From NCBI RefSeq assembly GCF_030064895.1, contig NZ_JASJEB010000018.1, positions 1 through 45,571 of the forward strand: 45,571 nt of DNA, given 5' to 3'. The notes beneath the pieces were generated by a model. The model ran no database searches. It was not told the DNA's origin and saw only the letters and a list, made by a program, of their open reading frames with translations. Source of the stretch: Crocosphaera sp. (lineage in GTDB: Bacteria > Cyanobacteriota > Cyanobacteriia > Cyanobacteriales > Microcystaceae). The translations under genes and the position numbers were made by a program. Positions 4,820 through 22,774 of this stretch are shown here, one piece after another; position 1 is the first letter of the stretch, and the number at the start of each line of letters is the position of its first letter.

Positions 4820-5758
4820 TTAACTCCTAATAGATTTTAAATTATTTCTTAGTTTTCGTAAATTAACAATTAGAAATAGTCGCCAAGATTGCCATGTACT
4901 GAGTTTCTTAGTAATAGGTTGATATCCTTGTTTGCTCATTTCATTTCTAGTTAAATGTTCTACGACAGCAATTTGATAGGAGGATAATTTTTCCCGCCAC
5001 TTTTCTAAGGCCATTTTATGGACGGGGGCTAAGACTTCTTGAACAGACGGATCGATATTATGGTTTAACCCAAAAATACTCGGAGATTTATGATTCTCTG
5101 AAATAATTAGGGGACTATACTGTTCTTGTAAAAAATAACAAATACGAGACATTTCTTGCTCAGGTTCTCGTACTAAGGATTCATATTTAACTAAGATAAT
5201 ATGCTCATCTTTTGACCATTTTTTTCTAAAATTTTCCACACTTTCACACCATTTACGAGCATGAACATCGATATAAGAACTCGCCCATTTTTTAGTTATT
5301 AAAGAAGAACTTACTGCTCGGGGATCTCGCAACATCCAAATGACCTGTGCATGAGGATACCATCTGAATAAAATATCTAGATATTGATAATGATCTGGTG
5401 TTTTTTCTCCCCATCTTAATTTTTCCATTTTCGTAGCATAAGATTCAAGGAGAACGGTTAAAACAGTTTTATGGTTTATATTTCCATCGACTAAAAGATT
5501 TGTCTGGATTTTTTCAGCATTTAATCCAAAAGATTCAAACATTTTACTACGACAAAGCGTTTGCCAAAAAGTCTCAAATTGTTCTGGTTGATTCAAATCT
5601 AAATGTTGATAGGGTTTGAACCAATTTTTACAAAAGTGAGTTTCTGGTGCGATGGCAATATTAGGATGTGCTGATAATAAAGAACGCATTAAAGTTGTGC
5701 CTGATCTTGGCATTCCTACAATAAAAATGGGATTTTGATTTTTACAACGTTTTTCCAT
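4820..5758 (-). CDS. PAPS-dependent sulfotransferase (tailoring)
   Basis: A 312-residue single-domain protein of the Sulfotransfer family. The 5'-phosphosulfate loop is at the N-terminus (FIVGMPRSGTTLMRSLL, residues about 12-28). The 3'-phosphate motif is WMLRDPRAVSSSL in the middle of the protein. No signal peptide or membrane segment is visible, so it should act in the cytoplasm. It sits inside the NRPS operon, between the two genes that together make one A domain, 19 bp before the downstream NRPS gene. It most likely sulfates the peptide or a sugar attached to it; sulfotransferases have similar tailoring roles in cyanobacterial peptides such as aeruginosins. The acceptor cannot be read from sequence. 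Confidence 0.88.
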   Translation of the reverse strand: MEKRCKNQNPIFIVGMPRSGTTLMRSLLSAHPNIAIAPETHFCKNWFKPYQHLDLNQPEQFETFWQTLCRSKMFESFGLNAEKIQTNLLVDGNINHKTVLTVLLESYATKMEKLRWGEKTPDHYQYLDILFRWYPHAQVIWMLRDPRAVSSSLITKKWASSYIDVHARKWCESVENFRKKWSKDEHIILVKYESLVREPEQEMSRICYFLQEQYSPLIISENHKSPSIFGLNHNIDPSVQEVLAPVHKMALEKWREKLSSYQIAVVEHLTRNEMSKQGYQPITKKLSTWQSWRLFLIVNLRKLRNNLKSIRS

Positions 5759-5956: not shown

Positions 5957-6709
5957 TTATTTTTTTCCTATTATATAGATAGATTCTTTTCGATATATTT
6001 CTAAATCACTTTCTCCTAAAATATCTGAACCGAAATCAACTTGTTTTACCTCAGAAAAACCAACTTCTTCTAACAATATTTTCAATAAATCTGGAGCAAA
6101 CATAAAACAATGACCCCATCCATAAATCAACTTATTTTTAGCTAAGATCGGATTGGTTGATTCTTGACATTGAGGTAAATCAAAGGAATTATTGTAAGCT
6201 TCTAGATAAGGAACAACAACCCGTATATACCCTCCTATTTTTAGATAATCAAAACAATTTTTCAAAGTAATTAGAGTATATTGAGGATGGATGTGTTCTA
6301 AAACATGAGAAAGAATAATAAAATCAGCAATTTCTAATAAATCAATATCTCGAACAGTTAAGTCCAAAAACAAATCATACTTAGTCTTATCCCTATTCCC
6401 AAATAAAAACCGTCTAATACTAGCAAAACCCCAATCACCGAAGACACGAAATACATCGGCGTTAATATATTCTTCTTTTTCATTTCCTGCACAGCCAATA
6501 TTTAAAATAAGAGGTGAATTTTGAGAAAAATTTGCTATTTTACGGCGATTAAATCCAGTTTTGATCATTAATTGGGTAAAATGAAAGCTTAACCATAATC
6601 TAAAAATATTTTTGATATTATGCAAGCTGGTAACTGGATATCCCACAGATTTTGCAACTGTGCTAAATTCCTCTAAAAGAATTTCTTTTTCTTTTTGTTG
6701 ATTGTTCAT
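5957..6709 (-). CDS. Class I SAM-dependent methyltransferase (tailoring)
   Basis: A 250-residue protein of the Methyltransf_11-like fold. SAM motif I is LILNIGCAGN near residues 67-76. The acidic post-I strand is YINADVF, and the late motif IILSHVLEHIHP resembles motif II of this family. KNCFDYLKIGGYIRVVVPY is the typical strand after it. No carrier or A-domain sequence is attached, so it is a free-standing enzyme and not an integrated N-methylation domain. The substrate is unknown; O-, N- or sugar methylation are all possible. It belongs to the block of three tailoring genes that separates the two halves of an A domain, and it is flanked on both sides by MITE-type repeats. Confidence 0.82.
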   Translation of the reverse strand: MNNQQKEKEILLEEFSTVAKSVGYPVTSLHNIKNIFRLWLSFHFTQLMIKTGFNRRKIANFSQNSPLILNIGCAGNEKEEYINADVFRVFGDWGFASIRRFLFGNRDKTKYDLFLDLTVRDIDLLEIADFIILSHVLEHIHPQYTLITLKNCFDYLKIGGYIRVVVPYLEAYNNSFDLPQCQESTNPILAKNKLIYGWGHCFMFAPDLLKILLEEVGFSEVKQVDFGSDILGESDLEIYRKESIYIIGKK

Positions 6710-6873: not shown

Positions 6874-8211
6874 CTACTTATGTTCATTTAATAAATCTTT
6901 CACGACTTGAACCGCAACACTCTTATGCTTATAGTGATCAAAACAATCACGCATACGATTAACTCGTATCCTATAGGACTGATTATTTAAAATATTATCA
7001 ATATCTTGTCTAATTTTAGTAGGTTTATCTTGTTGAATATCACCAGTAATACCAAGGCCATGATAAGCGATGCGGGCTGCATTTCCATTTTGATCATAAC
7101 GTCGCAGAGAATAAACTAACATAGGCACACCAAAGTAAAGACACTCATTTATACTATTAATCCCAGCATTAATAATCCCACAGTCTGCGTGTTTAAGTAT
7201 TTGAATTTGAGGGGTCCAATTAAAAGCATATACATTAGAAGGAAGAGAACCTAATTGATTCAAGTCTAGCTGATTACCAACTCCTATTACTAAATCCCAT
7301 TGTAAACAATTTGATACTGCTTCTATAAGTTTTTTTAAAAATCTTTGATTCCCTCTATTAAAGCTACTACAACCACAATAAATTAGTGAACTCCCAGTTA
7401 ATTGACGTTTTTCAAAGAGTTGCTCTAGACTTTTATAAGTGCTGGGTTCAACGTTTGATTCATGACGATTTTCGTAAACCATTGGTCCAATATAGTGCAT
7501 TGAAGGATGCGGAACGTGGGGATAATCTAACTCTAAAGCGTTGAAACAGAGAACAGGAATGGCCTTATGGGGATAAGGGACAAGAGACTGCTTAAACCCG
7601 AATCTTTCTCTGAAGGGATAGCCTATTTTCTTAGCATAACAACGCAAGACAGAAATTCGATCAACTCCCATCTTTTGCCAACGTTCGGACTGATATTCTC
7701 GCCATTTTGTCCAACCATAGCGGAACCAAGTCCATTCAATGCCAAACCATTGTCCTCGCAACCCTTTACCTGGAATAATATTAGTGTGAATAGGAGGTAA
7801 ATGAGGTCGCTTCCAAATTGATAAAAACTGACATAAAAGTGCGACTGGTAGCTTGTTAGCAACCGCAGTCATAATATGGGGGTGCATTTCCATATCAATG
7901 AGCAGTAGATCGGGTTTTAATTCCTTAATTGTTTCTACAAAATTCTCGACACCCAATGCTTTTATTCCTTGATTTCTTCGTTCTCTGAGTTGCCGAAATT
8001 TTTGCCAGCGACTCAGAGGGGGTTCTTGCCAATCAAATATCCAAGGATCAAGTTGAACAAAGGGTATATTATATTGATTCGTTAGATCAGACCAGTCTTT
8101 AGGACTAGCGTAGGTAACATGATGACCTGCTTGTTCCAAGTGCTTAACCAATGCAATACTCGCGTTAAATATTCCTGTCAGTCCACCAGTGATGCAAACA
8201 ATATGAGCCAT
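6874..8211 (-). CDS. GT1-family (UGT-like) glycosyltransferase (tailoring)
   Basis: A 445-residue GT-B fold enzyme. The N-terminal half starts with the glycine-rich MAHIVCITGGLTGIFNASIA acceptor-side pattern. The C-terminal half has the nucleotide-sugar signature region IINAGINSINECLYFGVPM followed by DQNGNAAR and GLGI, matching the UGT-type NSxxExxxxGVPxxxxPxxxDQ pattern. The usual HGG of that signature reads NAG here. No signal peptide is visible. The start codon lies two bases after the stop of the upstream NRPS gene, implying translational coupling, so the sugar is probably transferred to the NRPS product. It resembles glycosyltransferases of other cyanobacterial peptide clusters in context; sugar and acceptor are unknown. 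Confidence 0.87.
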   Translation of the reverse strand: MAHIVCITGGLTGIFNASIALVKHLEQAGHHVTYASPKDWSDLTNQYNIPFVQLDPWIFDWQEPPLSRWQKFRQLRERRNQGIKALGVENFVETIKELKPDLLLIDMEMHPHIMTAVANKLPVALLCQFLSIWKRPHLPPIHTNIIPGKGLRGQWFGIEWTWFRYGWTKWREYQSERWQKMGVDRISVLRCYAKKIGYPFRERFGFKQSLVPYPHKAIPVLCFNALELDYPHVPHPSMHYIGPMVYENRHESNVEPSTYKSLEQLFEKRQLTGSSLIYCGCSSFNRGNQRFLKKLIEAVSNCLQWDLVIGVGNQLDLNQLGSLPSNVYAFNWTPQIQILKHADCGIINAGINSINECLYFGVPMLVYSLRRYDQNGNAARIAYHGLGITGDIQQDKPTKIRQDIDNILNNQSYRIRVNRMRDCFDHYKHKSVAVQVVKDLLNEHK

Positions 8212-8213: not shown

Positions 8214-11030
8214 TTAATCATTTTCCTCGATATTAATCAGCAATTGCTTTACTTGATCTTCATGCAATGTTAACAATTGTGTGACCAAACTCTCTACACT
8301 ATCAGAGTCAGAAGACGGTTGAATGGACTGAGTTACTAATACTGCTTCTTGAACCGTTTCATGTTCTTTGAGTATATCTTCAATTTCCCCTAACTCAATC
8401 CGATAACCCCTAATTTTTACTTGGCGATCGACTCGTCCCAAAAATTCTATATTTCCGTCTGGAAGATAACGCGCAAGATCACCGGTTCGGTACAAATAAT
8501 CTCCTTCCACTTGACTAAAGGGGTTAGGAATAAATTGCTGATTCGTTTTTTCTGGTTGATTTAAGTATCCTTGAACAACTCCTGAACCACCAATAAAGAT
8601 TTCTCCTGGAACACCTATAGGAACTAACTGTTGAAGATTATTGAGTAAATAAATTTGTGTATTGGCAATGGGTTTACCAATGGGAATAGTTGAACTTTCC
8701 ATAGTTTTTGGTACTTGATAGACACTACTCCAAACTGTTGCTTCTGTGGGACCATATTCGTTATATAAAGAGGTATCTGGAAGTTTTTCATGGTGTAGTG
8801 TAGCAAGCGATTGCCAACTCCCTTCTCCTGCAACAATGACGACTTTTAGAGATTCAAGTTCTGTATTTTTCGTATAGGTTAATAATAAGTTATAAAGAGA
8901 TGGCAAACAGAGGGTATGAGTAATTTGCTCACGGGAAATTAGGGTTGCTAATGCTTGTATATCTTGTTCTAATTTTTGTTTTGGTAAAACGAGAGTTCCT
9001 CCTTGACATACTGTCCAAAAAATTCCGGCAACTGAACTATCAAAAGCAAAGGAAGAGAGTAACAAAAAGTTACCAACGGATTGATTATAATACTGAATTC
9101 GGGCTGTTGTAGAATGAACAAGATTACTGTGCGTTACTAAGACTCCTTTGGGTTTACCTGTAGAACCTGATGTATAAATGATGTAAGCAAGAGAGTCATT
9201 TGATTTTAGGTTAATTAGTGAAGATTTTAAATCCTCATTGTCTTCTATTTTTTGCCAATCTGTATCTAAACAAAAAGTGGGTATATTAAACCCCGTCGTT
9301 AAAGACGGGGTCTTGGGCAACAAATTGAGCAGTTTTTGCTGAGTTAAAATTATAGCAGTTTCAGTATCTTGCAAAATATAAATCAATCTTTCTTGAGGAT
9401 AGTCTGGATCTAAAGGAACATAAGCACCACCAGCAATAAGAATACCAAGAATTGCTATCACCATTTCTAAAGAACGTTCTAAAAAAATGCCGACACAAAC
9501 ATCAGACCCAACACCTAAAGATTGTAAATAATGAGCTAGACAATTAGCTTTTTGGTTTAGTTCTTGATACGTTAGAGATTGATTCTCAAAGGTAACAGCA
9601 ACAGCATGGGGATTTTGCTTGACTTGTTCTTTAAATAAATCATAAATATAAACATCTTTTCCTATTTTTGTTTGAGGTTTATTCCACTCTAAAAGGAGTT
9701 GATTTTTTTCTGCTTCGGTTAATATAGGTAAGTCAATAAGATTACTATTAGGATGTTCAAAAAATCCTTGTAATAAAGTTTCTAGAGAAGCTAACATTCG
9801 AGTTATTATCCCAGAATCAAAACGATTTCCATCATAGATTAAAATTAATTTTAATGATACTTTCGGAACTACCAGTAAAGCGAGAGGATAATTACTTTGT
9901 TCTCGGTAATTAATTTCATCTATTGTTAAGTCAATATCTTCTGTTTGAGGAGGTTCAGGATAGTTTTCAAAGACAACCAAACTATCAAATAAAGACTTTC
10001 CTTGGGGGACTTCACTCCATTGTTGAATATTGACCAAAGGAGTATATTCAAAATCACGAATTTTGAGCAGTTGTAACTGTATTTCTTGCAACCAAGGAAT
10101 CAGTTGTTGTTGAGGAGAAATATTGACTCTGACGGGCAAACTATTGATAAAAATTCCTACCATTTCTTCAACTCCTGAGAAGGTTGTAGGACGACCAGAA
10201 ACTGTTGTTCCATAAACAATTTCTTGTTCACCACTATATCGACTCAAAAGCAAAGACCAAGCACCATTAATAACTGTATTTAGGGTAAGTCTATTCTGTT
10301 TCGCCCAAGTATTTAAAGATTCTGAGAGTTTAGGATTTAATGAAATTTGTTTTTGTTGATAGTTAGAAGTGGATTTAAAAGAGTTGCTAATAGGAAGTGG
10401 AGTTGGTTCTGTAAATCCTTTAAAAACTTGTTGCCAAAAGATTTTAGCTTTGTTTAAATCCTGTTGTTGTAGCCAAGCAATATAATCTTTATAGGGAGGA
10501 GAAGATGGGAGACTAATTTCTTTTTTTTGACAGAGAGAAGCATATAAAGCAAATACTTCTTTTAAGATAATCAGAGTTGACCAACCGTCACTAATTAGAT
10601 GATGAAATGTCCAAATTAACTGATAATTTTTATCTTGAAGATAAATAATTTTTAGACGCATTAATGGTGCTTTTTCTAACTGAAATCCTAAAAAGCGATC
10701 TTGTTCAAGAAGGTCATCTAATTGTTCTTTTTGTTTTGTAGAGTCTAGTTTACACCAGTCTTCAAATGTCCATAAAATTTCTACCTTTTGACGAACAATT
10801 TGTAAAGGTTCATCTAAACCTTCCCAAACAAAAGCAGTTCTTAAAGTTTCATGACGTTCTATAACTTTTTCCCAAGCTAACTTAAAAAATTTTTCTTGTA
10901 ATTCACCTTTAATTTTACAGGTATATTGTTCTATGTAAACACCTGAATTTGGTGCAGTTAAGGTATGAAAAAGCATTCCTTGCTGAACAGGAGAGAGGGG
11001 ATATATATCGGCAACATTTTCTAGCTTCAT
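8214..11030 (-). CDS. NRPS: condensation - adenylation core, truncated after motif A8
   Basis: About 938 residues. Residues 1-440 form a condensation domain with HHLISDGWS near residue 143. An adenylation core follows with A3 (YTSGSTGKPKG), A5 (NEYGPTEATV), A7 (YRTGDLAR) and A8 (KIRGYRIELGEIE). The protein ends about 50 residues later, without the C-terminal subdomain, A10 lysine or a carrier; these are found at the start of the protein encoded at 2806-4800. My alignment to GrsA gives specificity residues D-S-A-L-I-A-E-V-W; I cannot assign a substrate. I chose the ATG at 11030; a TTG three codons upstream is possible, and neither has a good ribosome site. Because the preceding protein ends in an E domain, the C domain should be DCL. 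The stop lies two bases before the glycosyltransferase start. Confidence 0.9.
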   Translation of the reverse strand: MKLENVADIYPLSPVQQGMLFHTLTAPNSGVYIEQYTCKIKGELQEKFFKLAWEKVIERHETLRTAFVWEGLDEPLQIVRQKVEILWTFEDWCKLDSTKQKEQLDDLLEQDRFLGFQLEKAPLMRLKIIYLQDKNYQLIWTFHHLISDGWSTLIILKEVFALYASLCQKKEISLPSSPPYKDYIAWLQQQDLNKAKIFWQQVFKGFTEPTPLPISNSFKSTSNYQQKQISLNPKLSESLNTWAKQNRLTLNTVINGAWSLLLSRYSGEQEIVYGTTVSGRPTTFSGVEEMVGIFINSLPVRVNISPQQQLIPWLQEIQLQLLKIRDFEYTPLVNIQQWSEVPQGKSLFDSLVVFENYPEPPQTEDIDLTIDEINYREQSNYPLALLVVPKVSLKLILIYDGNRFDSGIITRMLASLETLLQGFFEHPNSNLIDLPILTEAEKNQLLLEWNKPQTKIGKDVYIYDLFKEQVKQNPHAVAVTFENQSLTYQELNQKANCLAHYLQSLGVGSDVCVGIFLERSLEMVIAILGILIAGGAYVPLDPDYPQERLIYILQDTETAIILTQQKLLNLLPKTPSLTTGFNIPTFCLDTDWQKIEDNEDLKSSLINLKSNDSLAYIIYTSGSTGKPKGVLVTHSNLVHSTTARIQYYNQSVGNFLLLSSFAFDSSVAGIFWTVCQGGTLVLPKQKLEQDIQALATLISREQITHTLCLPSLYNLLLTYTKNTELESLKVVIVAGEGSWQSLATLHHEKLPDTSLYNEYGPTEATVWSSVYQVPKTMESSTIPIGKPIANTQIYLLNNLQQLVPIGVPGEIFIGGSGVVQGYLNQPEKTNQQFIPNPFSQVEGDYLYRTGDLARYLPDGNIEFLGRVDRQVKIRGYRIELGEIEDILKEHETVQEAVLVTQSIQPSSDSDSVESLVTQLLTLHEDQVKQLLINIEEND
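9290..9311. repeat. Perfect 8-bp-stem hairpin inside the A domain (REP-like)
   Basis: ACCCCGTC and GACGGGGT pair perfectly around a GTTAAA loop. It lies in the low-conservation stretch between A2 and A3, where it encodes a TPSLTTGF-like peptide. GC-rich hairpins of this look occur as REP sequences and at IS200/IS605 ends in cyanobacteria, so it may be a small insertion tolerated in frame. Confidence 0.5.
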
Positions 11031-11104
11031 TGGAAACAATTGTGTATTTTCAGTGAACTAATAAGATTATAGAATACTTGTAACATATTGATGTTTTGTG
11101 ACTT

Positions 11105-11241: not shown

Positions 11242-14200
11242 TTAACCCAGTAACTTAGCTATTTTATTGATTTTGTCTTCAGTTAAATTAGCTAAAGGAA
11301 AGTCATTAGGTGTAGAATCTTCTGCTTGAGACTGACTACAATGAGTAATAAGCGATCGCAATTTTTTCGAGAAATTATCGATCATCTGTTTAACGATTTT
11401 TTCTTGATTAAAATTACCACTATAACGCCAATCAATTGTCAGTTTCTCTTCAATTATAAAAGCATTAATTTCGAGAATATACTGTCTTTTTTCTTGATCA
11501 CTTCGAGATAATGTGAGTTCACGACACAGTTTAAAGGGAGAGTTTTCTGCTAATAGTTGTTCCATAATCCCAAGATAATTAAAAAGAATTTTTGATGGCG
11601 ATATTGCTTCTAATATCTCATCCGAACGGAGATAATGTAATATTCCATAACTAATTCCTCGGTTGGGAATATTACTTAATTCTTCTTTAATAGATGTTAG
11701 AGATAATTCTAAATTCTTATTATTTTCTATCTTGAAGATAACGGGAAAAATAGAGGTAAACCAACCTATTGTACGGACTAAATTTGCCCCTTTTACGATT
11801 TCTTGTTCTCTACCATGACCTTCCAAGTCTATCTGAATTAATGGGTTTTGAGTTATTTCTGTAATTGACAATGTTAGCGCAGTAATTAATATCTCATTGA
11901 TGTGGGTATGATGAATTTTTGGAATGTCTTGTAACAGTAAGTTAGTTTCCTCAGCAGTGAGAGAAACAGTAATATTCTTAGCAGTTGCTTCTGTATTTTC
12001 CGTACTATCATAATCTAACGATAAAGATGGTAATTCAGTCCCAGATAATGATTGCCAATACTCAATTTCTGTTTGCAAATTATTATCTAAGTTAGCTAAT
12101 TCAACTAATTTTTCAGACCACTGTTTAAATGAGGTTGTTTTCAAAGGAAGTTGGCAAGGTTGTCCATTTTTTAGTTGTTGGTAAAGGGTTTGTAAATCTT
12201 TTAATAAAATTGACCAAGATACCCCATCAATGGCTAAATGATGGATAATAATGAGTAAATGATTCTTTTGATTATTGCCTAAATTCAACAAGGCAATTTT
12301 GATAAGTTCTCCCTGAGCAAGATTGATACTTTTTTGTAGATTCTCTTCTATTTTAGCAGTAGAATCATCTTGTTCTGAAACAGTTTTATGGGATAAATCA
12401 ACGGATGTTACTGTTACATTGGGAATCGATTCGGGGATAAATTGCTGCCAAGAAAATGATTCTTTTTTAAACTGTGAGCGAAGGGAATCATGATGAATTA
12501 GTAACTGTTGGAGTGCTTTTTCTAACAAATTATTATCTAATTTTTCATCTATTTCAAGCAAAAGACTTTGATTCCAATGGTTCGGTTCTTGCACATTTTG
12601 AGCAAAGAAACGATGTTGAATAGGAGTAAGGGGAACAGATCCGGTAACCAGTCCTTGTTCAGATAAAATGATTGATAAAGTGTCAATATTATCAGCTAAT
12701 TCCTTGATGGTTGGATGTTGAAATAACTGATTAGGACTCAATTGTAACCCAAATTCATTGGCCTTAATTGCAATTTGAATCGCCATAATTGAATCGCCAC
12801 CAAGATCAAAGAAGTTATCATAAATTCCTATTTGATTGACTTTTAAAACTGTTGTCCAAATTTGACTTAAAGTCTTTTCAAGGGGTTGACTGGGAATAAC
12901 AAAAGTTGTATCTAGTTCAGGTCGAGTATTTTCTGGACTGGGTAAACAAGTGCGATCAAGTTTGCCATTATTTGTTAGGGGAATTTTATCAAGGGGAATA
13001 AAATAAGAAGGAATGGTATTCCGGGGAAGTTTTTGACTAAGATAAGTTCTTAAATCAGCAGAACTTAAATGGGTAGAACTGACATAATAAGCAACCAGTT
13101 TATTGTCTTCATTTTCAACTTCTTCATAACCAATTTCTTGTAAAATTCTTTCAACATCTTCAACATTTATATTATCATTCAGTTCTTCTAATGCTGTATC
13201 TCTTTCTTTGTGACCCAAACGAACATCCCAACTATAAGGTAAAGCATAATTGTGATACCCTTGCTGTTGAGTATGGACATAAATACCAGCATTGTTGATT
13301 AAACAGTTAGTAGAACGTCCTGTATCTGAAGGTCTGATCCAAGGTGCATTTTCTTTGAGAAACCGTAACATTTCCTCTAGTTCTACATCGCAATAGCGGT
13401 AGAAATCAACAATTTTAACTCTGTTAAAAATCTCATCATCACTAAAAGCAGTTACATCTAATTCCCGATAGATTGCATCATCAACTCGATGATATGCTTT
13501 TCTTGCTTCTAACACCATTTTATCAATTTCATTGACATCAAAATTAGGTTGGGTAAATAGTTCCACTGTTAATCGTGTCTCAAAAAATTGTCCCCTAGAT
13601 AACCCCGTGATGATAACAGGAATACCTTTTTCATCAGCAAGTTGCATACTCAAGGTATAAATGGTTTTAAAACAACCATTACACACATTACAATGACGTT
13701 GCAGACTATCAACAAATATCTTATTCATCGCTGGAGTATTACCAAAGATATGATCCACATTCAAAGACTCAACCACTCTTTGAATATTCCCTTTTGCTTG
13801 TTCGGAAATATAACCATTATCTAAGGTGAAAGTTAATACTTTTAAACCCATTCCTACCAGTTGATACAAAACATAAGTGCTGTCTTTTCCACCACTAAGT
13901 AACATTAAACAATCGTATTCTCCTCTCTTGTTTGTTTTTGCTTCATTTAAAATTTTTTTGAGTTCATCAAAGGGTTTAAAATATTGTTGAATTCTGTGCT
14001 GGTAATTTTCATACGCATTACACAGATTACAAACTCCATTTTCATCTAAGGTAATATTAGGATAATTAGAAGGAATTCCACATTGAGAACAGTGAATTAT
14101 GGAAGATTTACTATCTAATGAAGCTTTTTTTTGGACAATATCTACAACACAATCAGTAATTTTAGGGTGAGATAATAAGACTGTTTCTACTTCTCCTAAT

Positions 14201-16830
14201 TCAATTCTGGTTCCTCTTATTTTTACTTGGCGATCGCTACGTCCTAAATATTGTAATTGTCCATTGTTTTTCCACCGTCCTAAATCTCCTGTTTTATATA
14301 ATCTTTCTCCAGGTTTAAAAGGATTAGAAATAAAACGTTCTCTGGACAATTCAGGACGATTAAGATAACCTTTTGCTAACCCTGGACTAGCAATATAAAT
14401 TTCTCCTACGACTCCTTGAGGAACGAGATTAAGATACTTATCTAAGACATAAATTTGTGATCCAGCAGATGGTTTACCGATGGGAACGGATACTCCTTGA
14501 TCTTGTTGATAATCGAACTTATAAATCATACAACCAACGGTTGCTTCACTCGGTCCATATTCATTATAAATGTCAATATTGTTATCAAACGCTTCTGTAA
14601 TTTTTCTCGCTAGGGACGTTTTTAAATCTTCACCACCCAGAATCATTTTTTTGATCTGAGACTGACTCAAATCCAAATCTTTGATAATAGATAGATGAGA
14701 AGGAGTCAACTTAATAATATTGACTGCATTATCTTCAATAATACGAGCAATCGACAAATCGATTTCCTCTGTATTTTCTTCATAAATTATAATTTCTCCA
14801 CCACTAATAAGTGGGACCATAATAGACGTTACAGTTAAGTCAAAAGAAAGGGGAGAGAAGAGAGGAAATTTAGCTTTAAAATTAGGATCATTGTTGTTTA
14901 TATATTCTTGTTTTGCCCAAGATACATAGTTAATTAATCCTCGATGTTCAATCATAACCCCTTTAGGTTGACCCGTCGAACCAGAGGTATAAATAATATA
15001 AGCTAAATCTCCTGGTTGAATCTTCTTATCAAGATTTTCTGACGACTCATCCTTGATTTTTATCCAGTCTTTATCAAGATCAATAATATCTAAATTACTA
15101 TCAACCGATATTTCTTCCCCTAAAGAACCTTCTGTTAATATCAAAGAAACTTGAGTGTCTTTTACAATAAAATTGATTCTCTCAGAAGGATAATTAGGGT
15201 CGAGAGGAACATAAGTCCCACCTGCTTTAATAATAGCCCAAATAGCGATCAACATTTCTAGTGATCGCCTCATAAAAATCCCAACAGTAATTTCTTGCCC
15301 AATCCCCTTTTTCTGTAAATAACGGGCTAATTGATTAACCTTTTTATTAAACTCATCGTAAGTAATCTGTTGTTGATTGTAGCTAATCGCAGGACTGTTA
15401 GGGGTTTGATTAACTTGTTCTTCAAAAATATCAATAACGTTTTTTTCTAATTTTGAATCATCAAAATTTGATTGGATATCAGAAAAATGATTAATTATAT
15501 CTTTCTCTTCTTCTGCTGTTACTAAATTAACCTTGTCTATGGGTTGGTTTCTATCTTCAATAAATCCTTTCAGAAGACTAATAAAATGAGCGATCGCTCT
15601 CTGCTGTAATGCTTCATCAAAGAGGTCATTATTAAAATCAAAATGTAACAAAAAATTACCACTTTTGTCTAAATCATGTACCTGAATTCTTAGATGATGA
15701 CGACTATCACCATAACCAGCATGAACCCAATCAGATTGCATTTCTAAACCATTAAAATCAGGAAAAGAAGCATTAATATAATTTAAGATAACATTAATTT
15801 CTCTGTTCAAAGCAAATCTACTCGTACCTGGTTGAGCATAACGTAAAAAACCATTAGATTCTTGTTGTACTTTTTTCAATAAAGATAAGAAAGTTTCTCC
15901 TTCTTCAATACAAATCTGAAAAGGAAATACCTCAATAAAAACACCAATTGTTTCTTTAAAATTCTTAGTGGGACGATTATGAGCGGGGGTACCAATAGCT
16001 AATGATTCTTGACCACTAATACGGTAAAGATAGGCAAAAATAACAGTAGCAAAAATATTAAAAAGAGACAGATGAACTGTAAGAGAACGAATCTCTTTTT
16101 CTGTGGTTATTGCTCTTAAATTTTGAGATAGTCCATCTTTATCTAAATAATAAGATACCCTTTTAGTCCGAGATTGTGTATTCGTTATATTGTTACCGTA
16201 AAAAATAATTTGTTTAGATAATTTATCTTGTTTTTTCTGCCAATAATCAACGGCTTTTTTATAAATAGAAAAATCACGAGAGTTATTTTCATAATTAATA
16301 TATTCAGCATAACTTGGTAATGCAGACAAATCTATCAAAGTGTCTTCCACTGCTTGTCGATAAAAATCACTCATATAGCGATAAATAAGGCTAACAGACC
16401 AAATATCAGTAATTAAATGATGTTGATTAAGATACCAAATAAATCTTTCTGAATCTATTTTTATTAAAGCAGAATCAAACAATCTTTCCTGTAAATTAAA
16501 AGGCTGTTGACATTTCTCTTGAATCCATTTTTTTGCAGTAATTTCAGGATTATTTTCAGCAGTAAAATCTAATAAAGGTAAAGTATAATTTAATGTAGAT
16601 TGTACTTTTTGCTGTGGAATATTGTTTACTTCTTCAATCACAGTCCGCAAAATATCACTTTTATTGATCAGTATTTGAAAGACTTTTTGAAATAATAAAG
16701 AGTTTATTTCGCCATTAATTGTAAAAGCCAATACCATATTATATATGGGGGCTGTTGGAGCCAACTTTTGTCCCAACCACAACATAAATTGACTCGTCGT
16801 TAAATTCGATTTTTCGGCAATATCACTCAT
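11242..16830 (-). CDS. NRPS: condensation - adenylation (Asn-like) interrupted by PP-loop domain - carrier - epimerization
   Basis: 1862 residues. The N-terminal condensation domain has HHLITDIWS at 137-145, with Ile in place of the conserved Gly. The A domain shows A3 (YTSGSTGQPKG), A5 (NEYGPSEATV), A7 (YKTGDLGR) and A8 (KIRGTRIELGEVE, about 865-880). My alignment to GrsA gives D-L-T-K-I-G-E-V-G-K, matching the known Asn code. After A8 comes an inserted domain of about 330 residues (CSQCG at 914, SGGKDST at 979-985). The A domain then resumes with KLVAYYV and A10 (NGKLD, about 1287). A carrier domain (LGGDSI, Ser1347) and an epimerization domain (HHLAIDGVSW, about 1525) complete it. Role: activates Asn, possibly modifies it, condenses it with the starter held on the free-standing carrier and epimerizes it. 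First multidomain module; 62 bp after the carrier gene. Confidence 0.92.
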   Translation of the reverse strand: MSDIAEKSNLTTSQFMLWLGQKLAPTAPIYNMVLAFTINGEINSLLFQKVFQILINKSDILRTVIEEVNNIPQQKVQSTLNYTLPLLDFTAENNPEITAKKWIQEKCQQPFNLQERLFDSALIKIDSERFIWYLNQHHLITDIWSVSLIYRYMSDFYRQAVEDTLIDLSALPSYAEYINYENNSRDFSIYKKAVDYWQKKQDKLSKQIIFYGNNITNTQSRTKRVSYYLDKDGLSQNLRAITTEKEIRSLTVHLSLFNIFATVIFAYLYRISGQESLAIGTPAHNRPTKNFKETIGVFIEVFPFQICIEEGETFLSLLKKVQQESNGFLRYAQPGTSRFALNREINVILNYINASFPDFNGLEMQSDWVHAGYGDSRHHLRIQVHDLDKSGNFLLHFDFNNDLFDEALQQRAIAHFISLLKGFIEDRNQPIDKVNLVTAEEEKDIINHFSDIQSNFDDSKLEKNVIDIFEEQVNQTPNSPAISYNQQQITYDEFNKKVNQLARYLQKKGIGQEITVGIFMRRSLEMLIAIWAIIKAGGTYVPLDPNYPSERINFIVKDTQVSLILTEGSLGEEISVDSNLDIIDLDKDWIKIKDESSENLDKKIQPGDLAYIIYTSGSTGQPKGVMIEHRGLINYVSWAKQEYINNNDPNFKAKFPLFSPLSFDLTVTSIMVPLISGGEIIIYEENTEEIDLSIARIIEDNAVNIIKLTPSHLSIIKDLDLSQSQIKKMILGGEDLKTSLARKITEAFDNNIDIYNEYGPSEATVGCMIYKFDYQQDQGVSVPIGKPSAGSQIYVLDKYLNLVPQGVVGEIYIASPGLAKGYLNRPELSRERFISNPFKPGERLYKTGDLGRWKNNGQLQYLGRSDRQVKIRGTRIELGEVETVLLSHPKITDCVVDIVQKKASLDSKSSIIHCSQCGIPSNYPNITLDENGVCNLCNAYENYQHRIQQYFKPFDELKKILNEAKTNKRGEYDCLMLLSGGKDSTYVLYQLVGMGLKVLTFTLDNGYISEQAKGNIQRVVESLNVDHIFGNTPAMNKIFVDSLQRHCNVCNGCFKTIYTLSMQLADEKGIPVIITGLSRGQFFETRLTVELFTQPNFDVNEIDKMVLEARKAYHRVDDAIYRELDVTAFSDDEIFNRVKIVDFYRYCDVELEEMLRFLKENAPWIRPSDTGRSTNCLINNAGIYVHTQQQGYHNYALPYSWDVRLGHKERDTALEELNDNINVEDVERILQEIGYEEVENEDNKLVAYYVSSTHLSSADLRTYLSQKLPRNTIPSYFIPLDKIPLTNNGKLDRTCLPSPENTRPELDTTFVIPSQPLEKTLSQIWTTVLKVNQIGIYDNFFDLGGDSIMAIQIAIKANEFGLQLSPNQLFQHPTIKELADNIDTLSIILSEQGLVTGSVPLTPIQHRFFAQNVQEPNHWNQSLLLEIDEKLDNNLLEKALQQLLIHHDSLRSQFKKESFSWQQFIPESIPNVTVTSVDLSHKTVSEQDDSTAKIEENLQKSINLAQGELIKIALLNLGNNQKNHLLIIIHHLAIDGVSWSILLKDLQTLYQQLKNGQPCQLPLKTTSFKQWSEKLVELANLDNNLQTEIEYWQSLSGTELPSLSLDYDSTENTEATAKNITVSLTAEETNLLLQDIPKIHHTHINEILITALTLSITEITQNPLIQIDLEGHGREQEIVKGANLVRTIGWFTSIFPVIFKIENNKNLELSLTSIKEELSNIPNRGISYGILHYLRSDEILEAISPSKILFNYLGIMEQLLAENSPFKLCRELTLSRSDQEKRQYILEINAFIIEEKLTIDWRYSGNFNQEKIVKQMIDNFSKKLRSLITHCSQSQAEDSTPNDFPLANLTEDKINKIAKLLG
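13117..14115 (-). other. PP-loop / N-acetyl-sugar-amidotransferase-like domain inserted between A8 and A9
   Basis: Residues about 905-1238 of the NRPS encoded at 11242-16830. A zinc-ribbon-like CSQCG...CNLC pair opens it, in the same arrangement as the N-terminus of WbpG/PseA-type N-acetyl sugar amidotransferases. The PP-loop SGGKDST follows, and then a second cysteine cluster CNVCNGC. The insert occupies the position where methyltransferase domains sit in known interrupted A domains. WbpG-type enzymes use ATP to turn an acetamido group into an acetamidino group. Family assignment is by motif recognition; boundaries are approximate. Confidence 0.75.
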
Positions 16831-16892: not shown

Positions 16893-17126
16893 TTACATTT
16901 TATTTATATAAGCATCAATAGTTTGGACTGTGCGAAAATTGTGGATCGTTACGTCTTCTAAAGGAACTTTAATTCCGAATTTTTCTTCGATGAAAGCAAT
17001 GAGCCACATAATACCCATTGAATCTAGTAAGTTTTCTCCGAGTAAGTCATCTTCTGCTTTAATTACCAAGCGTCCGTTGAGTAGGTCTTCGCTAATATAG
17101 GTTATGAGTGTTTTTTGAGTATCCAT
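16893..17126 (-). CDS. Free-standing acyl/peptidyl carrier protein (starter carrier)
   Basis: A 77-residue carrier. The phosphopantetheine attachment motif is LLDSMG (Ser in the middle), followed by helix III-type sequence and VPLEDVTIHNFRTV. It lies 66 bp downstream of a free-standing adenylating ligase and directly before NRPS 1. This is the arrangement of prolyl-carrier systems such as PltL/PltF/PltE and AnaD/AnaC/AnaB. Expected role: holds the activated starter amino acid while the flavoenzyme oxidizes it, then donates it to the first condensation domain. A carrier for another acyl group is possible. Confidence 0.85.
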   Translation of the reverse strand: MDTQKTLITYISEDLLNGRLVIKAEDDLLGENLLDSMGIMWLIAFIEEKFGIKVPLEDVTIHNFRTVQTIDAYINKM

Positions 17127-17192: not shown

Positions 17193-18773
17193 TTAATTCA
17201 TGTTTCTGACGGCCTCTTGTTGTAAAGCTCGACGGTCGATTTTACCCGATGTTGTCCTTGGTAATTCCTCCCTAATAGAAATCTTAAGAGGAACTGCATA
17301 TCTGGGTAAAATATTAGAACCATAGCGTATTAACTCAGTGGGGGTAATTTTTTCTTGTCCTTTTAAAGTAACAGCTGCTTCTATATGCTGACTACCTGAG
17401 TCGTTTTCAACACCAAAAACTCCTGCTTCCTCTACTAAAGGATGGGAAACTAGAGCGGTTTCTATTTCATCCAGTTCTACTCGATAACCTCGTGTTTTAA
17501 TTTGTCGGTCTTTGCGTCCCAAAAAACGGTAATTACCATCGGGTTCTAACCGTACTAGATCCCCTGTCCGAAAAAAAACCTCTTGATGATTTCCTATTGT
17601 ATTACGATAAAAAAACGCTTTTTTGTTTAAATCAGGATTCTGCCAATATCCTTGCATCATGGTAGGAGTTCGGACCAATAATTCTCCTATTTCTCCTTCC
17701 GTTACCCTTTTATCTTCTTCATCAACCACCAATTCCTCTGCATTGTCCCAAATTTTACCAAGGGGGACTGGTTCATTTAGAATCGATTCTAAGGGAGGAA
17801 TATGATAGTAGCTACACTGATTAATTTCAGCCGGACCATAAACATTACAAAAACGTGCTTGAGGAAGTAATTTCATTAATTCGTATAAATATTTGGGAGG
17901 GAAAGGCTCTCCTCCAAATAGTATCCAACGTAAAGAACTCAAGTCATGATTAGGCAGAAGTCCACGATGAAGTAATTGAATTAGGGCAAAGGGAACAGAA
18001 TACCAAATAGTGATTTTTTCTGTTTCAATTAGTTGGCCAAGACTAGCAGGAATTTTAGTATAAGCTTCCGGAATAATAACCGTTGTTGCACCCACCAAAG
18101 GACCTGTAAAATAGTCCAGGGTTGACATATCAAAATGTAATGGGGAGTGGTTTCCCAAGCGATCACCCTCATTTAAGTTATAGGTATGAGCCGACATTTT
18201 GGCATAACTTAAACCACTTTTATGGGTGTGCATAATTCCCTTTGGTTCTCCTGTTGAACCAGAGGTGTACATGATATAAGCTAAGTCTTGTTCAATTATT
18301 TTTATTTTGGGTGAGGACTTGGCAGAGATATCTGTTACTATTTTCCAATCAAAAATACGGATAGGTAGTTCGCTATTTCCAGGAAGTCCCACCACATATT
18401 CTAAAGGGGTTGTTTCCTGCAAAATTTCTTTGATATATGGTTGTTTTTGGGGTTGAGTTATGATACCCCGAATCTGACAATTTTTAAGGATAAATCTAAT
18501 TCGGGTTGCTGGTGCAGAGGGATCTAGGGGGACATAAGCCCCTCCTGCTTTCATGATGCCATAGATAGCGATCGCTGATTCTAGGCTTTTATTACAATAA
18601 ACCCCAATGCGATCGCCTTTTTTCAACCCTTGGTCTATAAGAAGATGTGCCAGAGTATTGGCCTGTTCTACCAACTCTTGATATGTCAGACTTTTATTTT
18701 CAAACCGAAAGGCTTCCTGGTGGGGAAATTTCTCAGCAGAATAATCTATACTATGGGGAAGAAGATAAATCAT
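17193..18773 (-). CDS. Free-standing amino acid:carrier ligase, probably L-prolyl-AMP ligase (PltF/AnaC-like)
   Basis: A 526-residue stand-alone adenylation enzyme of the ANL superfamily, with no carrier or condensation domain. Motifs: MYTSGSTGEPKG (A3), HFDMSTLDYF (A4), NVYGPAEINQC (A5), FRTGDLVR (A7), KTRGYRVELDEIE (A8) and SGKIDRR (A10). My alignment gives specificity residues D-M-L-Y-L-G-V-Q-C-K. From memory this resembles the pattern of free-standing prolyl ligases more than the Pro code of modular NRPSs, but I could not check it. The start codon overlaps the stop of the dehydrogenase gene by ATGA, and the carrier gene follows. It should load proline (inferred) onto that carrier. Confidence 0.82.
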   Translation of the reverse strand: MIYLLPHSIDYSAEKFPHQEAFRFENKSLTYQELVEQANTLAHLLIDQGLKKGDRIGVYCNKSLESAIAIYGIMKAGGAYVPLDPSAPATRIRFILKNCQIRGIITQPQKQPYIKEILQETTPLEYVVGLPGNSELPIRIFDWKIVTDISAKSSPKIKIIEQDLAYIMYTSGSTGEPKGIMHTHKSGLSYAKMSAHTYNLNEGDRLGNHSPLHFDMSTLDYFTGPLVGATTVIIPEAYTKIPASLGQLIETEKITIWYSVPFALIQLLHRGLLPNHDLSSLRWILFGGEPFPPKYLYELMKLLPQARFCNVYGPAEINQCSYYHIPPLESILNEPVPLGKIWDNAEELVVDEEDKRVTEGEIGELLVRTPTMMQGYWQNPDLNKKAFFYRNTIGNHQEVFFRTGDLVRLEPDGNYRFLGRKDRQIKTRGYRVELDEIETALVSHPLVEEAGVFGVENDSGSQHIEAAVTLKGQEKITPTELIRYGSNILPRYAVPLKISIREELPRTTSGKIDRRALQQEAVRNMN

Positions 18774-19918
18774 AATCCTAATAAACTAGCAATAATGTTG
18801 CGTTGAATATCCGATGTCCCCGCATAAATAACGCCACCAATGGCATCTCTAAGATTCCTTTCAACTCCATACTCAGTCAAATAACCGTTTCCTCCATGAA
18901 TGCGTATGGCATCCAAACCTGAAGCAACAAAACATTCACTTAAATGGAGCTTAAGTAAAGCCGCTTCTAACATAGCAGGTTTTCCTTGATCTTTGAGCCA
19001 AGCGACTTTATAAAGTAGTAATCTAGCTGTTTCTAGTCGCAACTTCATCTCAGCAACTCGATTAGAAACAGATTGAAACTTGCCGATCGCTTGTCCATAT
19101 TGTTCTCTAGACTTAGCATAAGCAATGGTTTCTTCCAACTGCTTTTCCATGGCACCCAGTTCACTAGCAAGATTAAAACAGCGATCGTATTCTAGGGAGT
19201 TGTGGGAAAAGCTAAAACCTGCACCCTCAGGACCGAGTCTATTTTCTTCGGGAACGAAACAATCTTCAAAGATAATCTCCCCAAAAGGAGCAGTCCGTAA
19301 GCCCATTTTTTCTTTAACCGCACTGGTAGAAAAACCAGGTGATGAACGTTCTACCAGAAACGTAGTTATACCCCACTTCCCTAAACTGGGATCAAGAGTG
19401 GCAAAAACAATCGCTAGGTCACAGATAGGGGCGCAAGTGACAAACTTTTTAAGGCCATTAAGAATATAGCCCCCTTCGCACTTTTTAGCTGTCGTCTTGA
19501 GACTGTAAACATCTGACCCAGAATTGGGTTCAGACAAAGCATGAACCCCTATCCAGTCACCATTACAAAGAAGAGGAAGATAACGTTGTTTTTGTGCTTG
19601 GGTGCCAAACTGCAACAGTAAAATCTGTACTGTCCACATCTGAGCATTGAGAGCTAAGGTGAGTCCATTATCTTCACAACCATAACCTAATCCCTCCATC
19701 CCTAGAACGGCAGTCATAATGTCCAATGCAGGAGAACCACTATAGGCTTCCGGGATACACATTCCTTGAATACCAAATTCAGCGCACTTTCTCCAGTTCT
19801 CCTGAGAAAACATTCCTTGATAGTCCCGTTCAATAATGTCCCCATTTAGGTTCTCTTGGGCAAACTTAATTACCCGTTGCTTAAAAGCTATTTGTTCTTC
19901 TGACCAAGCAAAATCCAT
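18770..19918 (-). CDS. Acyl-CoA dehydrogenase-family flavoenzyme, probably prolyl-carrier dehydrogenase (PltE/AnaB-like)
   Basis: About 382 residues with the full acyl-CoA dehydrogenase fold: N-terminal helical domain, LSEPNSGSD flavin-site motif, KKFVTCA, KMGLRTAPFGEI, and the C-terminal IHGGNGYLTEY and AGTSDIQRNIIA motifs. The Glu of the IYEGTSE motif, which is the base in short/medium-chain enzymes, is Ala here (IYAGTSD). The position used as base in isovaleryl-CoA and prolyl-carrier dehydrogenases appears as Asp in LEYDR. Expected reaction: two- or four-electron oxidation of prolyl-S-carrier to pyrroline- or pyrrole-carboxyl-S-carrier. I prefer the ATG at 19918 over a TTG two codons upstream. 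It overlaps the ligase gene by four bases. Confidence 0.85.
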   Translation of the reverse strand: MDFAWSEEQIAFKQRVIKFAQENLNGDIIERDYQGMFSQENWRKCAEFGIQGMCIPEAYSGSPALDIMTAVLGMEGLGYGCEDNGLTLALNAQMWTVQILLLQFGTQAQKQRYLPLLCNGDWIGVHALSEPNSGSDVYSLKTTAKKCEGGYILNGLKKFVTCAPICDLAIVFATLDPSLGKWGITTFLVERSSPGFSTSAVKEKMGLRTAPFGEIIFEDCFVPEENRLGPEGAGFSFSHNSLEYDRCFNLASELGAMEKQLEETIAYAKSREQYGQAIGKFQSVSNRVAEMKLRLETARLLLYKVAWLKDQGKPAMLEAALLKLHLSECFVASGLDAIRIHGGNGYLTEYGVERNLRDAIGGVIYAGTSDIQRNIIASLLGL

Positions 19919-20249
19919 AATCAATATAAATATCTAAAGTAGATTGAAAGAAAAAAGTTGTTAAAAGAAGGCAGGAGTTGAAAGGCAGGAGGCAGGAGGC
20001 CGGTATAGATGGGGATTTTAACCCGCATCTAACCGGAGACCACCAAATCGCAGATTTTGCTGGGGGACGCGGGACCCAGTTGGGCGAAGCAAAAAGGCTT
20101 GACTTTAACTAAAAATCTTCCCTCCTGCCTCCTGCCCCCTGCCTTCTGCCTCGCCCGAAGGGCTGTTATAGCAGTCGCCAAAGCTATTAGGACATTTTTC
20201 TGTTCCCTGTTCCCTGTTCCCTGTTCCCTTAAAATATAATTTATGTGTC
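19919..20249. other. Gene-free spacer filled with repeats
   Basis: About 330 bp between the dehydrogenase and cyclodeaminase genes. It contains GGCAGGA heptamers (about 19978-20000), a GGTATAGATGGGGATTTTAA stretch also found at 5870-5890, CTCCTGC heptamers (about 20121-20152) and the left part of the MITE at 20166-20274. I see no protein gene or RNA gene. The length of the spacer suggests that the cyclodeaminase was once closer to the rest of the operon. Confidence 0.7.
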
Positions 20250-20274
20250 CTAACTAGCCTGTCTATTGCTATAA
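20166..20274. mobile_element. 109-bp MITE with TTATAGCA/TGCTATAA ends; supplies the 3' end of the cyclodeaminase gene
   Basis: The terminal inverted repeats are TTATAGCA and TGCTATAA, with inner inverted TAGGACA/TGTCCTA blocks and four tandem GGGAACA-type heptamers. An inverse-orientation copy at 37907-38015 differs only at the terminal base by my reading. The right end overlaps the last seven or eight codons and the stop codon of the cyclodeaminase gene. Confidence 0.85.
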
Positions 20275-21368
20275 ATTGAATTTACGGAAAGGTCTATTTT
20301 AGAAACACCTTTGTTAATTGCTGATGGAATCGAAAAATCATAGGGGTTTCTCGTATCAGCAGAGATACTTTCCAATTGGACTAAAGTTCCTGCCCCTAGT
20401 TCTTTAGCGTAATCAAAAAATATATTCATGACAACTTGATCTTCTAAGGCCCATCCTGTTGAATCAAAAACTGTTTTCTCATAGCGAATATATCTATACT
20501 GCTCTTCTTGTTTGATCAATTGGTAGAGTTCCAGTTGAATATCTTGAGGTTCGAGTTGCTGGCATTCCCCTTCTTTCAATGCTTGAGTACGGAAATCAGG
20601 GCAAACAAAACTACTTTGAAGAACGGATTTGGGGATCTCTATTTTTCCAGAGAAGTCAGAGCCAATGGCATTGATATGTATCCAAGGTTTGAGGGATTTA
20701 TCTTGAAAAACAGGGCCTTCTCCAACTTTAACCGAAGTCGCAGTACAAAGCACATCGGCTAAGGCTACCAGTGGAGCCAATGGAGTTACCTGAATTTCTA
20801 CATTTTTAAGATTAAGGCAAGCAACCCTTTGTGCAAAAGAATTGCTGATCATGGGATCAGTGTCATAAATTAGAACCTGCTCGAAATCGAAAATTCGAGT
20901 AAGGGCGTGCAACTGAGTAACTGCCTGTGCGCCACAACCGATAATTCCTAGAATTTTGCTATGGGGTTTAGCCATTAATTGACTGGCGACGGCTGATGCT
21001 GCACCGGTTCTTAGGGCGGTTAAAAAAGTTGCGTCCATCAATCCCATCAAGTGGCCTGAGGTTGCATCATAAGCTGATACGGTGGAAAGAATTGTCGGTA
21101 GTTGACGATTCTGGGGATTATTAGGATGATAGCCAACAACTTTGATAATTACTCGCTCTTGTTGATGAAGCAAGGGCATCCATTCGATCAAACCTGTATG
21201 AGAATTTTCATAGCTAAAACCTTCACGGGGGGGAATAGTGGTTTTGTTGTGATCAAATTGCTGAAATGTTTTGCTCAGGCGAGCTATGGTTTGGTCCATC
21301 AACATATCTAAGCCAACTTTCTGCACAATTTTGCGGATATCATTGACTGAGAGAATTAAGGTTTCCAC
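20250..21368 (-). CDS. Ornithine cyclodeaminase / mu-crystallin family enzyme, 3' end rewritten by a MITE
   Basis: A 372-residue NAD-dependent enzyme family: TALRTGAASAVAS substrate/cofactor region, ILGIIGCGAQAV Rossmann motif (about residues 140-151), and TATSVKVGEG with the HINAIGSD stretch. Ornithine cyclodeaminase makes proline from ornithine with loss of ammonia, which would feed the prolyl-carrier trio encoded downstream. Other family members make cyclic imines or amino acids such as pipecolate or 2,3-diaminopropionate, so the exact substrate is open. The start is GTG, supported by GGAGG six bases upstream. The last residues (YSNRQAS) and the stop codon lie in a MITE, so the original C-terminus was altered. 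The normal family length is about 310-350 residues, so the catalytic domain should be complete. Confidence 0.85.
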   Translation of the reverse strand: METLILSVNDIRKIVQKVGLDMLMDQTIARLSKTFQQFDHNKTTIPPREGFSYENSHTGLIEWMPLLHQQERVIIKVVGYHPNNPQNRQLPTILSTVSAYDATSGHLMGLMDATFLTALRTGAASAVASQLMAKPHSKILGIIGCGAQAVTQLHALTRIFDFEQVLIYDTDPMISNSFAQRVACLNLKNVEIQVTPLAPLVALADVLCTATSVKVGEGPVFQDKSLKPWIHINAIGSDFSGKIEIPKSVLQSSFVCPDFRTQALKEGECQQLEPQDIQLELYQLIKQEEQYRYIRYEKTVFDSTGWALEDQVVMNIFFDYAKELGAGTLVQLESISADTRNPYDFSIPSAINKGVSKIDLSVNSIYSNRQAS

Positions 21369-21460: not shown

Positions 21461-22774
21461 TTAGAAAATTTGTTTAACAAAACCGAAAAGATGAAGATCA
21501 ACATCAAAAGCACGTTCTATAAACCAATAAATGCCCACTATAAACATAAAAGCGGCTCCAGATTGAACAAAAAATCTACTATAAATTTTTGGTTGCCGAC
21601 AGAGATAAAGAAGGGGAAAAATGATAGCAATGATAGCAATTTGACCAAGTTCAATCCCTAAATTAAATCCAAATAAGGAGAGAAATGCGTGGTCTCGAGC
21701 TATCCCTAACTCTGCTAGAATATTAGCAAAACCAAATCCATGAAATAATCCAAAACCAAAGATAATTAACCAAATTCTTTTTCCAAAAATAGGATAAACA
21801 ATATCTACAGCAGCTATGGCAATGGACAGAGCAATTATGGATTCAACTATGCGAGAAGGAATTTCAATAATTTGCAGTGTGGCCAAAGCTAAGGTGACGC
21901 TATGGGCAATAGTAAAAGCAGTGGCAATTTTAATTACATGAAAAAAAGCGGGGCGAAAATTTTTCACTGGTTCCCAGCCTAAATTTTCTCGGCGTAAGAC
22001 AGAGGGGAGAATTAAAGCAATTAAGAACAAAATATGATCAGTACCTTCCCAAATATGTAAAAAACCTAGTTTGACCACAGAAGTAAACCCTCTCCATAAG
22101 GAAGAAGAGGATAAATCTAAAGTTTGTGGGGAGCTATTAGGAGTGAAAGTTAAGGAGATAGAAGATTCATTGGCAAATGTGCCTGTCTTCCAATTATGCT
22201 CAATCATAACGAAGTTTTTATGTTTAGGTTTAATATCTAACAGCACTCGGTAATCAACATCAAGAGTTTCAGGAATTTCTTCTAAATTGTCAAGACGGTA
22301 ATCAAAAGTTAAATAGTGAGCAAATCCTGTTTTAAACTGCCCATATCCTTGATATATTAAAGGATATTCTTGTTGGTTATTACTAATAGTCAAATTTTCC
22401 TCTAGATAATCCCTAATTTCTGAAAGGTGAGGCTCTATATCTTGTTTTTGAACCTTCTTATTAGTTGGTAAATTCAAGTTTAAGGCTTTATTGAGGTCTT
22501 TAACTGTAATTTCTGCGCGGGTTTCAATGGCTTGGTCATATACTTGAAAATAAAGATAACTTTGCTCAGGTGCATGGGCGGTTACATTAAGTATAGGCAG
22601 CAAGCAAAATAAAATCGCCATACTTAGCTGCAAAATAATTGATTTTAGTCCCTTATTTTGAGTTATTTTATCCCAAATACTGTGTTTGGTCTTATTATTA
22701 AAATATAAAAGGGGTACAGATAAATTACTTTGGTTCTTCCTGCTCTGTTGTTGAAACAGTTTTTTGACAAACAT
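21461..22774 (-). CDS. HupE/UreJ-family membrane protein
   Basis: About 437 residues. One N-terminal hydrophobic segment ending in VTAHAPEQSY looks like a signal peptide or anchor. It is followed by an extracytoplasmic beta-rich region of about 200 residues and then by several transmembrane helices: GFLHIWEGTDHILFLIALIL, FTIAHSVTLALA, IALSIAIAAVDI and FGFGLFHGFGFANIL. The histidine-bearing GxDHxLF and FHGFGFA motifs are those of the HupE/UreJ_2 family, for which nickel or other metal transport has been proposed. The start is uncertain (ATG at 22774 chosen; TTG at 22786 possible). It lies 92 bp upstream of the cyclodeaminase on the same strand and is divergent from the injection-system genes. 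I see no functional link to either. Confidence 0.78.
   Translation of the reverse strand: MFVKKLFQQQSRKNQSNLSVPLLYFNNKTKHSIWDKITQNKGLKSIILQLSMAILFCLLPILNVTAHAPEQSYLYFQVYDQAIETRAEITVKDLNKALNLNLPTNKKVQKQDIEPHLSEIRDYLEENLTISNNQQEYPLIYQGYGQFKTGFAHYLTFDYRLDNLEEIPETLDVDYRVLLDIKPKHKNFVMIEHNWKTGTFANESSISLTFTPNSSPQTLDLSSSSLWRGFTSVVKLGFLHIWEGTDHILFLIALILPSVLRRENLGWEPVKNFRPAFFHVIKIATAFTIAHSVTLALATLQIIEIPSRIVESIIALSIAIAAVDIVYPIFGKRIWLIIFGFGLFHGFGFANILAELGIARDHAFLSLFGFNLGIELGQIAIIAIIFPLLYLCRQPKIYSRFFVQSGAAFMFIVGIYWFIERAFDVDLHLFGFVKQIF

Follow-up and report, generated by a model that had tools for sequence, protein, structure and literature searches.

The closest described systems are CysH (cystobactamid) and AlbIV (albicidin), nonribosomal peptide synthetases (NRPSs) in which an asparagine-type adenylation (A) domain carries a PP-loop insert of about 340 residues with an SGGKD motif. 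In CysH this insert was named the AMDH (aminomutase/amide-dehydratase) domain by Gross et al. 2021 (PMC7966384), and it is covered likewise in a review (PMC8949500). In the in vitro assays described by Gross et al., CysH loads Asn, and the carrier-bound Asn loses 18 Da, corresponding to beta-cyanoalanine, in a reaction for which the AMDH domain is required. CysH also forms isoasparagine, a reaction that works best once CysJ has introduced a beta-hydroxyl group and weakly in the absence of CysJ; the share of nitrile rises when CysJ is left out, while some isoasparagine persists. Purified CysH is described as dark brown, and every BLAST homologue of AMDH reported in the same work is located in an Asn A domain for which a product is not known (PMC7966384). 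Here we describe such an insert, with its observed architecture, Asn-type code, family membership and conserved motifs, in an NRPS gene of Crocosphaera sp. (assembly GCF_030064895.1, contig NZ_JASJEB010000018.1; the window is the whole stretch of 45,571 nucleotides that was analysed). The insert is an AMDH domain, and it probably turns carrier-bound Asn into beta-cyanoalanine, a nitrile and not an amidine.

The gene and its parts are located in the window as follows:

11242..16830, minus strand: NRPS gene, condensation (C) - A[AMDH] - peptidyl carrier protein (PCP) - epimerisation (E); open reading frame (ORF) of 1862 residues with PF00668, PF00501, PF00550 and TIGR profiles
13117..14115, minus strand: AMDH-type PP-loop insert, residues 906-1238 (TIGR03573, CysH-like kinship, AlphaFold2)
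15466..16806, minus strand: condensation domain, roughly residues 9-455 (PF00668, which matches the protein in two stretches)
14131..15441, minus strand: A-domain core with Asn-type code, residues 464-900 (PF00501 469-823; TIGR01733 490-896)
14020..14091, minus strand: Cys4 ribbon at the N-terminus of the insert, C914, C917, C934 and C937 (in 85, 85, 84 and 85 of 85 inserts)
13876..13896, minus strand: PP-loop SGGKDST, residues 979-985
13672..13683, minus strand: C1050-x-x-C1053, proposed iron-sulfur (Fe-S) ligands
13303..13305, minus strand: C1176, proposed third Fe-S ligand
12931..13110, minus strand: resumed A domain, A9/A10 with K1290 (PF13193 1243-1290, 21.3 bits, cut-off of 24.5 not reached)
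12691..12873, minus strand: carrier protein, residues 1320-1380 (PF00550; Ser in 77/77)
11260..12642, minus strand: C domain of putative epimerisation type (PF00668 1397-1845; TIGR01720 1709-1857)

The original prediction, made from the letters of the window, had placed an in-frame PP-loop insert with a cysteine ribbon and a further cysteine cluster between motifs A8 and A9, and this is what the motif positions display: A8 (GRSDRQVKIRG) at residue 863, CSQCG at 914, CNLC at 934, SGGKDST at 979, CNVCNGC at 1047 and, after the A domain has resumed, A10 (NGKLDR) at 1288, with K1290 kept in 77/77 aligned rows. The code of the insert-bearing module reads DLTKIGEVG over nine residues, which we take to be the Asn code, as had been proposed. 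A 2025 survey treats DLTKIGEVGK under Asp/Asn, where it is also compatible with beta-cyanoalanine (PMC12283262). Methyltransferase inserts, another kind of inserted enzyme found in interrupted A domains, differ from the insert of the window.

Such methyltransferase inserts also sit between A8 and A9. A scan of a species collection (84,980 genomes) gave 149 relatives, by which the idea of a fusion unique to the window genome was rejected; the set of 80 loci referred to below is the best 80 of these 149. Structure prediction by AlphaFold2, which had been named as a check, gave a pLDDT of 94.0 and a pTM of 0.91 for the insert alone (alignment of 51 inserts, that of the window plus 50 of the 80 loci), and a pLDDT of 89.5 and a pTM of 0.68 for A-insert-PCP (77 rows). 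In the latter model the insert is flanked by a strand at 429-438 before it and one at 781-789 after it (model residues).

To approach the kinship with CysH, a profile built from four inserts was run against 195 Myxococcota genomes. Of the 3 matches, one is the genome on which the search was centred. The other two (L139 and L140) are stand-alone A-insert-PCP proteins with a TauD protein, an O-methyltransferase and an A-PCP-C-A-PCP-TE (thioesterase) synthetase as neighbours, in one locus also with a type II thioesterase and a chorismate-binding enzyme; this gene content suggests that they are CysH, i.e. cystobactamid-type loci. The window insert is 51-52% identical to these two CysH-like inserts, and a quick tree of 121 rows, which holds several long branches so that some joins may be false, nests the CysH-like rows in the insert clade (support 98), separate from the sugar amidotransferases. 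Because of this identity and the shared clade, the insert is filed as an AMDH domain. Hence the finding is not a first: the fusion, of which no described case had been known to the original prediction, is already published in CysH and AlbIV. To our knowledge, the cysteine site and the cluster family are new. CysH and AlbIV are stand-alone A-T (adenylation-thiolation) modules that feed the assembly line in trans, whereas the window module is an in-line C-A[AMDH]-PCP-E.

The TIGR03573 (WbuX) profile matches residues 913-1232 of the NRPS with 134.2 bits (E 6.8e-39), below its curated cut-off of 203.2, and the insert displays the TIGR03573 fold. In the proposed search against PP-loop families, PF06508 (QueC) matches residues 974-1046 with 23.9 bits, above the gathering score of 22, over profile positions 2-74 of 210 only. 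Of the amidotransferase-like PP-loop domain that had been claimed, the PP-loop part is borne out, while membership in the WbuX/WbpG family falls short of the cut-off. This bears on beta-amidinoalanine, at first put forward as the main product, for which the insert would swap the amide oxygen of Asn for an ammonia-derived nitrogen; the residue might then close on the preceding carbonyl to a bleomycin-like aminopyrimidine. A bleomycin-type pyrimidine was considered because of the Asn-His order of the modules, and a literature search for it yielded nothing useful. Against the amidine speak the loss of 18 Da in CysH (PMC7966384), the missed TIGR03573 cut-off and the lack of HisH/HisF partners among the 22 window proteins scanned by profile; we reject it as the main product and regard it as quite improbable. 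The VCNGC and STNC cysteines of the window insert are missing in 6 of the 7 annotated TIGR03573 members compared, a further difference from that family.

SGGKDS together with Cys 914, 917, 937, 1050, 1053 and 1176 is present in all 85 aligned inserts, so that the ATP-site residues, whose loss would have spoken against the assignment, are retained. Because the PP-loop and these six cysteines are invariant, the insert is not a chance feature. The same invariance, together with the high-confidence predicted fold, stands against a catalytically dead passenger, for which no supporting point was found and which we consider extremely improbable.

The CxxC that follows the PP-loop (C1050/C1053) aligns with the CxxC of 8cnz, mmLarE-[4Fe-4S]. 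Judged from this alignment, Cys 1050 and 1053, together with the invariant Cys 1176, may hold a [4Fe-4S] cluster, which could explain the brown colour of CysH. The mechanism of AMDH has been called unknown despite this colour, and the three invariant cysteines now offer a testable Fe-S site. The trio as a feature unique to AMDH was rejected. A stand-alone relative of 348 residues (L002, genome G325), located outside any NRPS, has the PP-loop and all three cysteines and represents a possible outgroup for the origin of AMDH.

TtuA, NcsA and LarE are PP-loop sulfur transferases with a [4Fe-4S] cluster; their substrates differ from those of AMDH, for which the cluster is predicted. This likeness raises the alternative that the insert, acting like TtuA or LarE, inserts sulfur and gives thioasparagine. 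In the assay that was reported, however, purified CysH acts on Asn as a dehydratase (PMC7966384), and no sulfur-carrier gene was recognised among the window proteins scanned; a literature search for the thioamide returned only a tRNA sulfur review. We hold thioasparagine to be highly improbable. A product of thioamide or nitrile type had been named as the second choice for this locus. The nitrile is now favoured by the 18 Da lost in CysH, and the thioamide is left as a minor rival. Nitrile synthetases with a PP-loop are represented by ArtA (9lei) and the QueC family, whereas the window insert is embedded in an NRPS. These nitrile synthetases are free-standing and act on soluble substrates.

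By analogy with CysH, the window enzyme would perform the same dehydration. The A domain would adenylate L-Asn and load it onto its own carrier, and the insert, anchored in the A8-A9 loop, would take up the carrier-bound Asn. The PP-loop and ATP would then activate the side-chain amide oxygen, presumably by adenylation of the amide, and this oxygen would be eliminated, leaving beta-cyanoalanine (-18 Da) on the carrier. The downstream C domain would extend the cyanoalanine residue, in the version of the window after epimerisation.

The aminomutase branch of CysH is a point against this. The insert may mainly isomerise carrier-bound Asn to isoasparagine, giving a beta-peptide linkage, since CysH does so best after hydroxylation by CysJ and weakly also on its own (PMC7966384). 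However, no CysJ-like dioxygenase was found in the window or among the ORFs of loci L031-L116. With the TauD proteins of L139 and L140 as queries (E 1e-5), no match was obtained in 5807 ORFs of at least 70 codons from these loci, the flanks reaching up to 10 kb for the 80 loci and a more distant gene lying beyond this reach; against the window only a chance match (E 0.46) was seen. Because CysH shifts towards the nitrile without CysJ and no CysJ relative was found nearby, the nitrile is predicted, and isoasparagine as the main product appears rather unlikely.

An A-core match upstream of the insert in the same ORF is present in 80/80 loci (only partly in L055 and L089). According to tree labels these loci span 13 phyla: Bacteroidota (45), Pseudomonadota (10), Cyanobacteriota (6), Acidobacteriota (5), Chloroflexota (3), Nitrospirota, Actinomycetota and Gemmatimonadota (2 each), and Planctomycetota, Myxococcota, Bacillota, Vulcanimicrobiota and Rhodothermota (one each). 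The closest locus among the best 80 of 149 is L037, from another Crocosphaera assembly (94%). Codes were surveyed in 84 insert loci (the 80 plus L031, L033, L034 and L035) and could be read in 81; all are of Asn type, each at most one residue off DLTKIGEVG. The three unread codes comprise two truncated ORFs and a Streptomyces case with the domain outside any A domain. In loci L114, L059 and L088 both the Asn code and the insert are retained although the remaining codes are different; the insert is thus tied to Asn rather than to its neighbours.

Within genome samples the AMDH domain is rare: 2/50 genomes of the family, 3/396 Actinomycetota (search centre included), and among cyanobacteria 30/386 matching genomes, with a long NRPS frame only in that of the window. 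In the Streptomyces case (L035:19932-22112, plasmid of Streptomyces sp. NBC_01216) an AMDH-like domain, 41% identical, is N-terminal on a condensation-type protein, and the gene adjoins an intact A-PCP gene, asnB and an amino-acid racemase.

The genes next to the NRPS gene are listed below:

16893..17126, minus strand: stand-alone carrier protein, for the starter (matched by carrier-protein models, none of which reaches its cut-off)
17193..18773, minus strand: stand-alone amino-acid ligase, putatively of prolyl type (PF00501/PF13193; the L-proline ligase 6o6e is among the PDB matches, not the best)
18770..19924, minus strand: relative of prolyl-carrier dehydrogenases (best PDB match 4irn, prolyl-ACP (acyl carrier protein) dehydrogenase, 453 bits)
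20250..21368, minus strand: ornithine cyclodeaminase family (PF02423)
21461..22786, minus strand: HupE/UreJ-2 permease with DUF6702 (PF13795, PF20420)
8214..11039, minus strand: C - A core of a His module, the A domain ending after A8 (code DSALIAEVW)
6874..8211, minus strand: glycosyltransferase (profile match)
5957..6709, minus strand: methyltransferase (PF13489)
4820..5758, minus strand: sulfotransferase (PF13469)
2806..4800, minus strand: A subdomain - PCP - E completing the His module (profile matches)
168..2678, minus strand: last synthetase, C - PCP - thioesterase without A domain (profile matches)

The code DSALIAEVW is given for His (PMC12283262). The dehydrogenase scores 402 of 500 bits against the PigA and 345 of 650 against the RedW equivalog model, reaching neither cut-off, and a code read for the prolyl ligase from a pairwise alignment was too noisy to be used. 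Since the last synthetase lacks an A domain, any residue that it contributes must be loaded in trans.

Neighbours were counted in the 56 loci whose insert is flanked by 6 kb or more on either side. HupE is present in 45/56, the ligase in 39/56, the dehydrogenase in 31/56 and the cyclodeaminase in 23/56; since these counts fall short of all loci, the starter genes are frequent, not universal. A second NRPS ORF that best matches the C or A domain of the second module of the window occurs in 47/56, and a His-type code is read in 44 of the 46 A domains that share 38% identity or more with the second A domain of the window. A TonB-type receptor is matched in 39 of the 80 loci, all Bacteroidota, in 35 of which it begins at most 0.8 kb from the NRPS end (a raw count); two of these receptors were confirmed by Pfam. 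TonB receptors are common in Bacteroidota. A small His-rich protein is matched in 28/80 loci. The 22 window proteins scanned include HupE and no TonB-type receptor.

For AMDH homologues without known product, a metallophore can be hypothesised from the repeated company of Asn and His modules with prolyl-starter, HupE and TonB genes. Such neighbours occur in many phyla, a hint that metal-binding peptides of this kind may form a widespread family. The gene company alone (His module, HupE, prolyl-starter genes, TonB in Bacteroidota) suggests a (dehydro)Pro-cyanoalanine-His metallophore as the cluster product. The layout X-X-His is that of Cu/Ni-binding peptides; a (dehydro)Pro-X-His peptide matches it. 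No paper on a product of this cluster type was found in open-licence literature.

The idea that the starter genes belong to the cluster as a fixed part is weakened by L037, the nearest Crocosphaera relative, in which none of the genes for ligase, dehydrogenase, cyclodeaminase and HupE adjoins the NRPS. An IS605-type transposase gene (L037:5439-6761) lies at the place of the starter genes of the window, and a dehydrogenase 95% identical to that of the window is encoded on another contig of this genome.

A wider model is put forward tentatively, and we consider it doubtful as a whole. AMDH domains would be [4Fe-4S] enzymes of the TtuA/LarE branch, in which the cluster, and not a radical, might help to dehydrate carrier-bound Asn or to shift its amino group. 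In nature they would most commonly serve to build a small (dehydro)Pro-cyanoalanine-His chelator of the Cu/Ni-binding X-X-His type in more than 10 phyla, and not topoisomerase inhibitors; HupE would handle this chelator, and Bacteroidota would take it back up through a dedicated TonB receptor that has a His-rich partner.

Plasmids of two marine alphaproteobacterial genera (L033 and L034) also carry starter genes and neighbours of this cluster type, and since the two share protein accessions, recent transfer is indicated. The A domain of the His module (8214-11039 and 2806-4800) is split across two genes at the A8-A9 loop, the same loop that holds the insert of the Asn module. The glycosyltransferase, methyltransferase and sulfotransferase genes lie between the halves, and both cut ends display helix-like tails (by eye). 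The ORF ends at most 60 residues from the core match in 22/46 of the related A domains, some of which ends may be contig ends. Divergent from the NRPS cluster, a set of contractile-injection type occupies 22926-45569 on the plus strand (baseplate J, gp25, Phage_base_V, eCIS_core, DUF6519). Within this set, a HigB-type gene (36154-36459, plus strand) and a PIN-domain gene (37284-37709, plus strand) are probably toxin-antitoxin genes.
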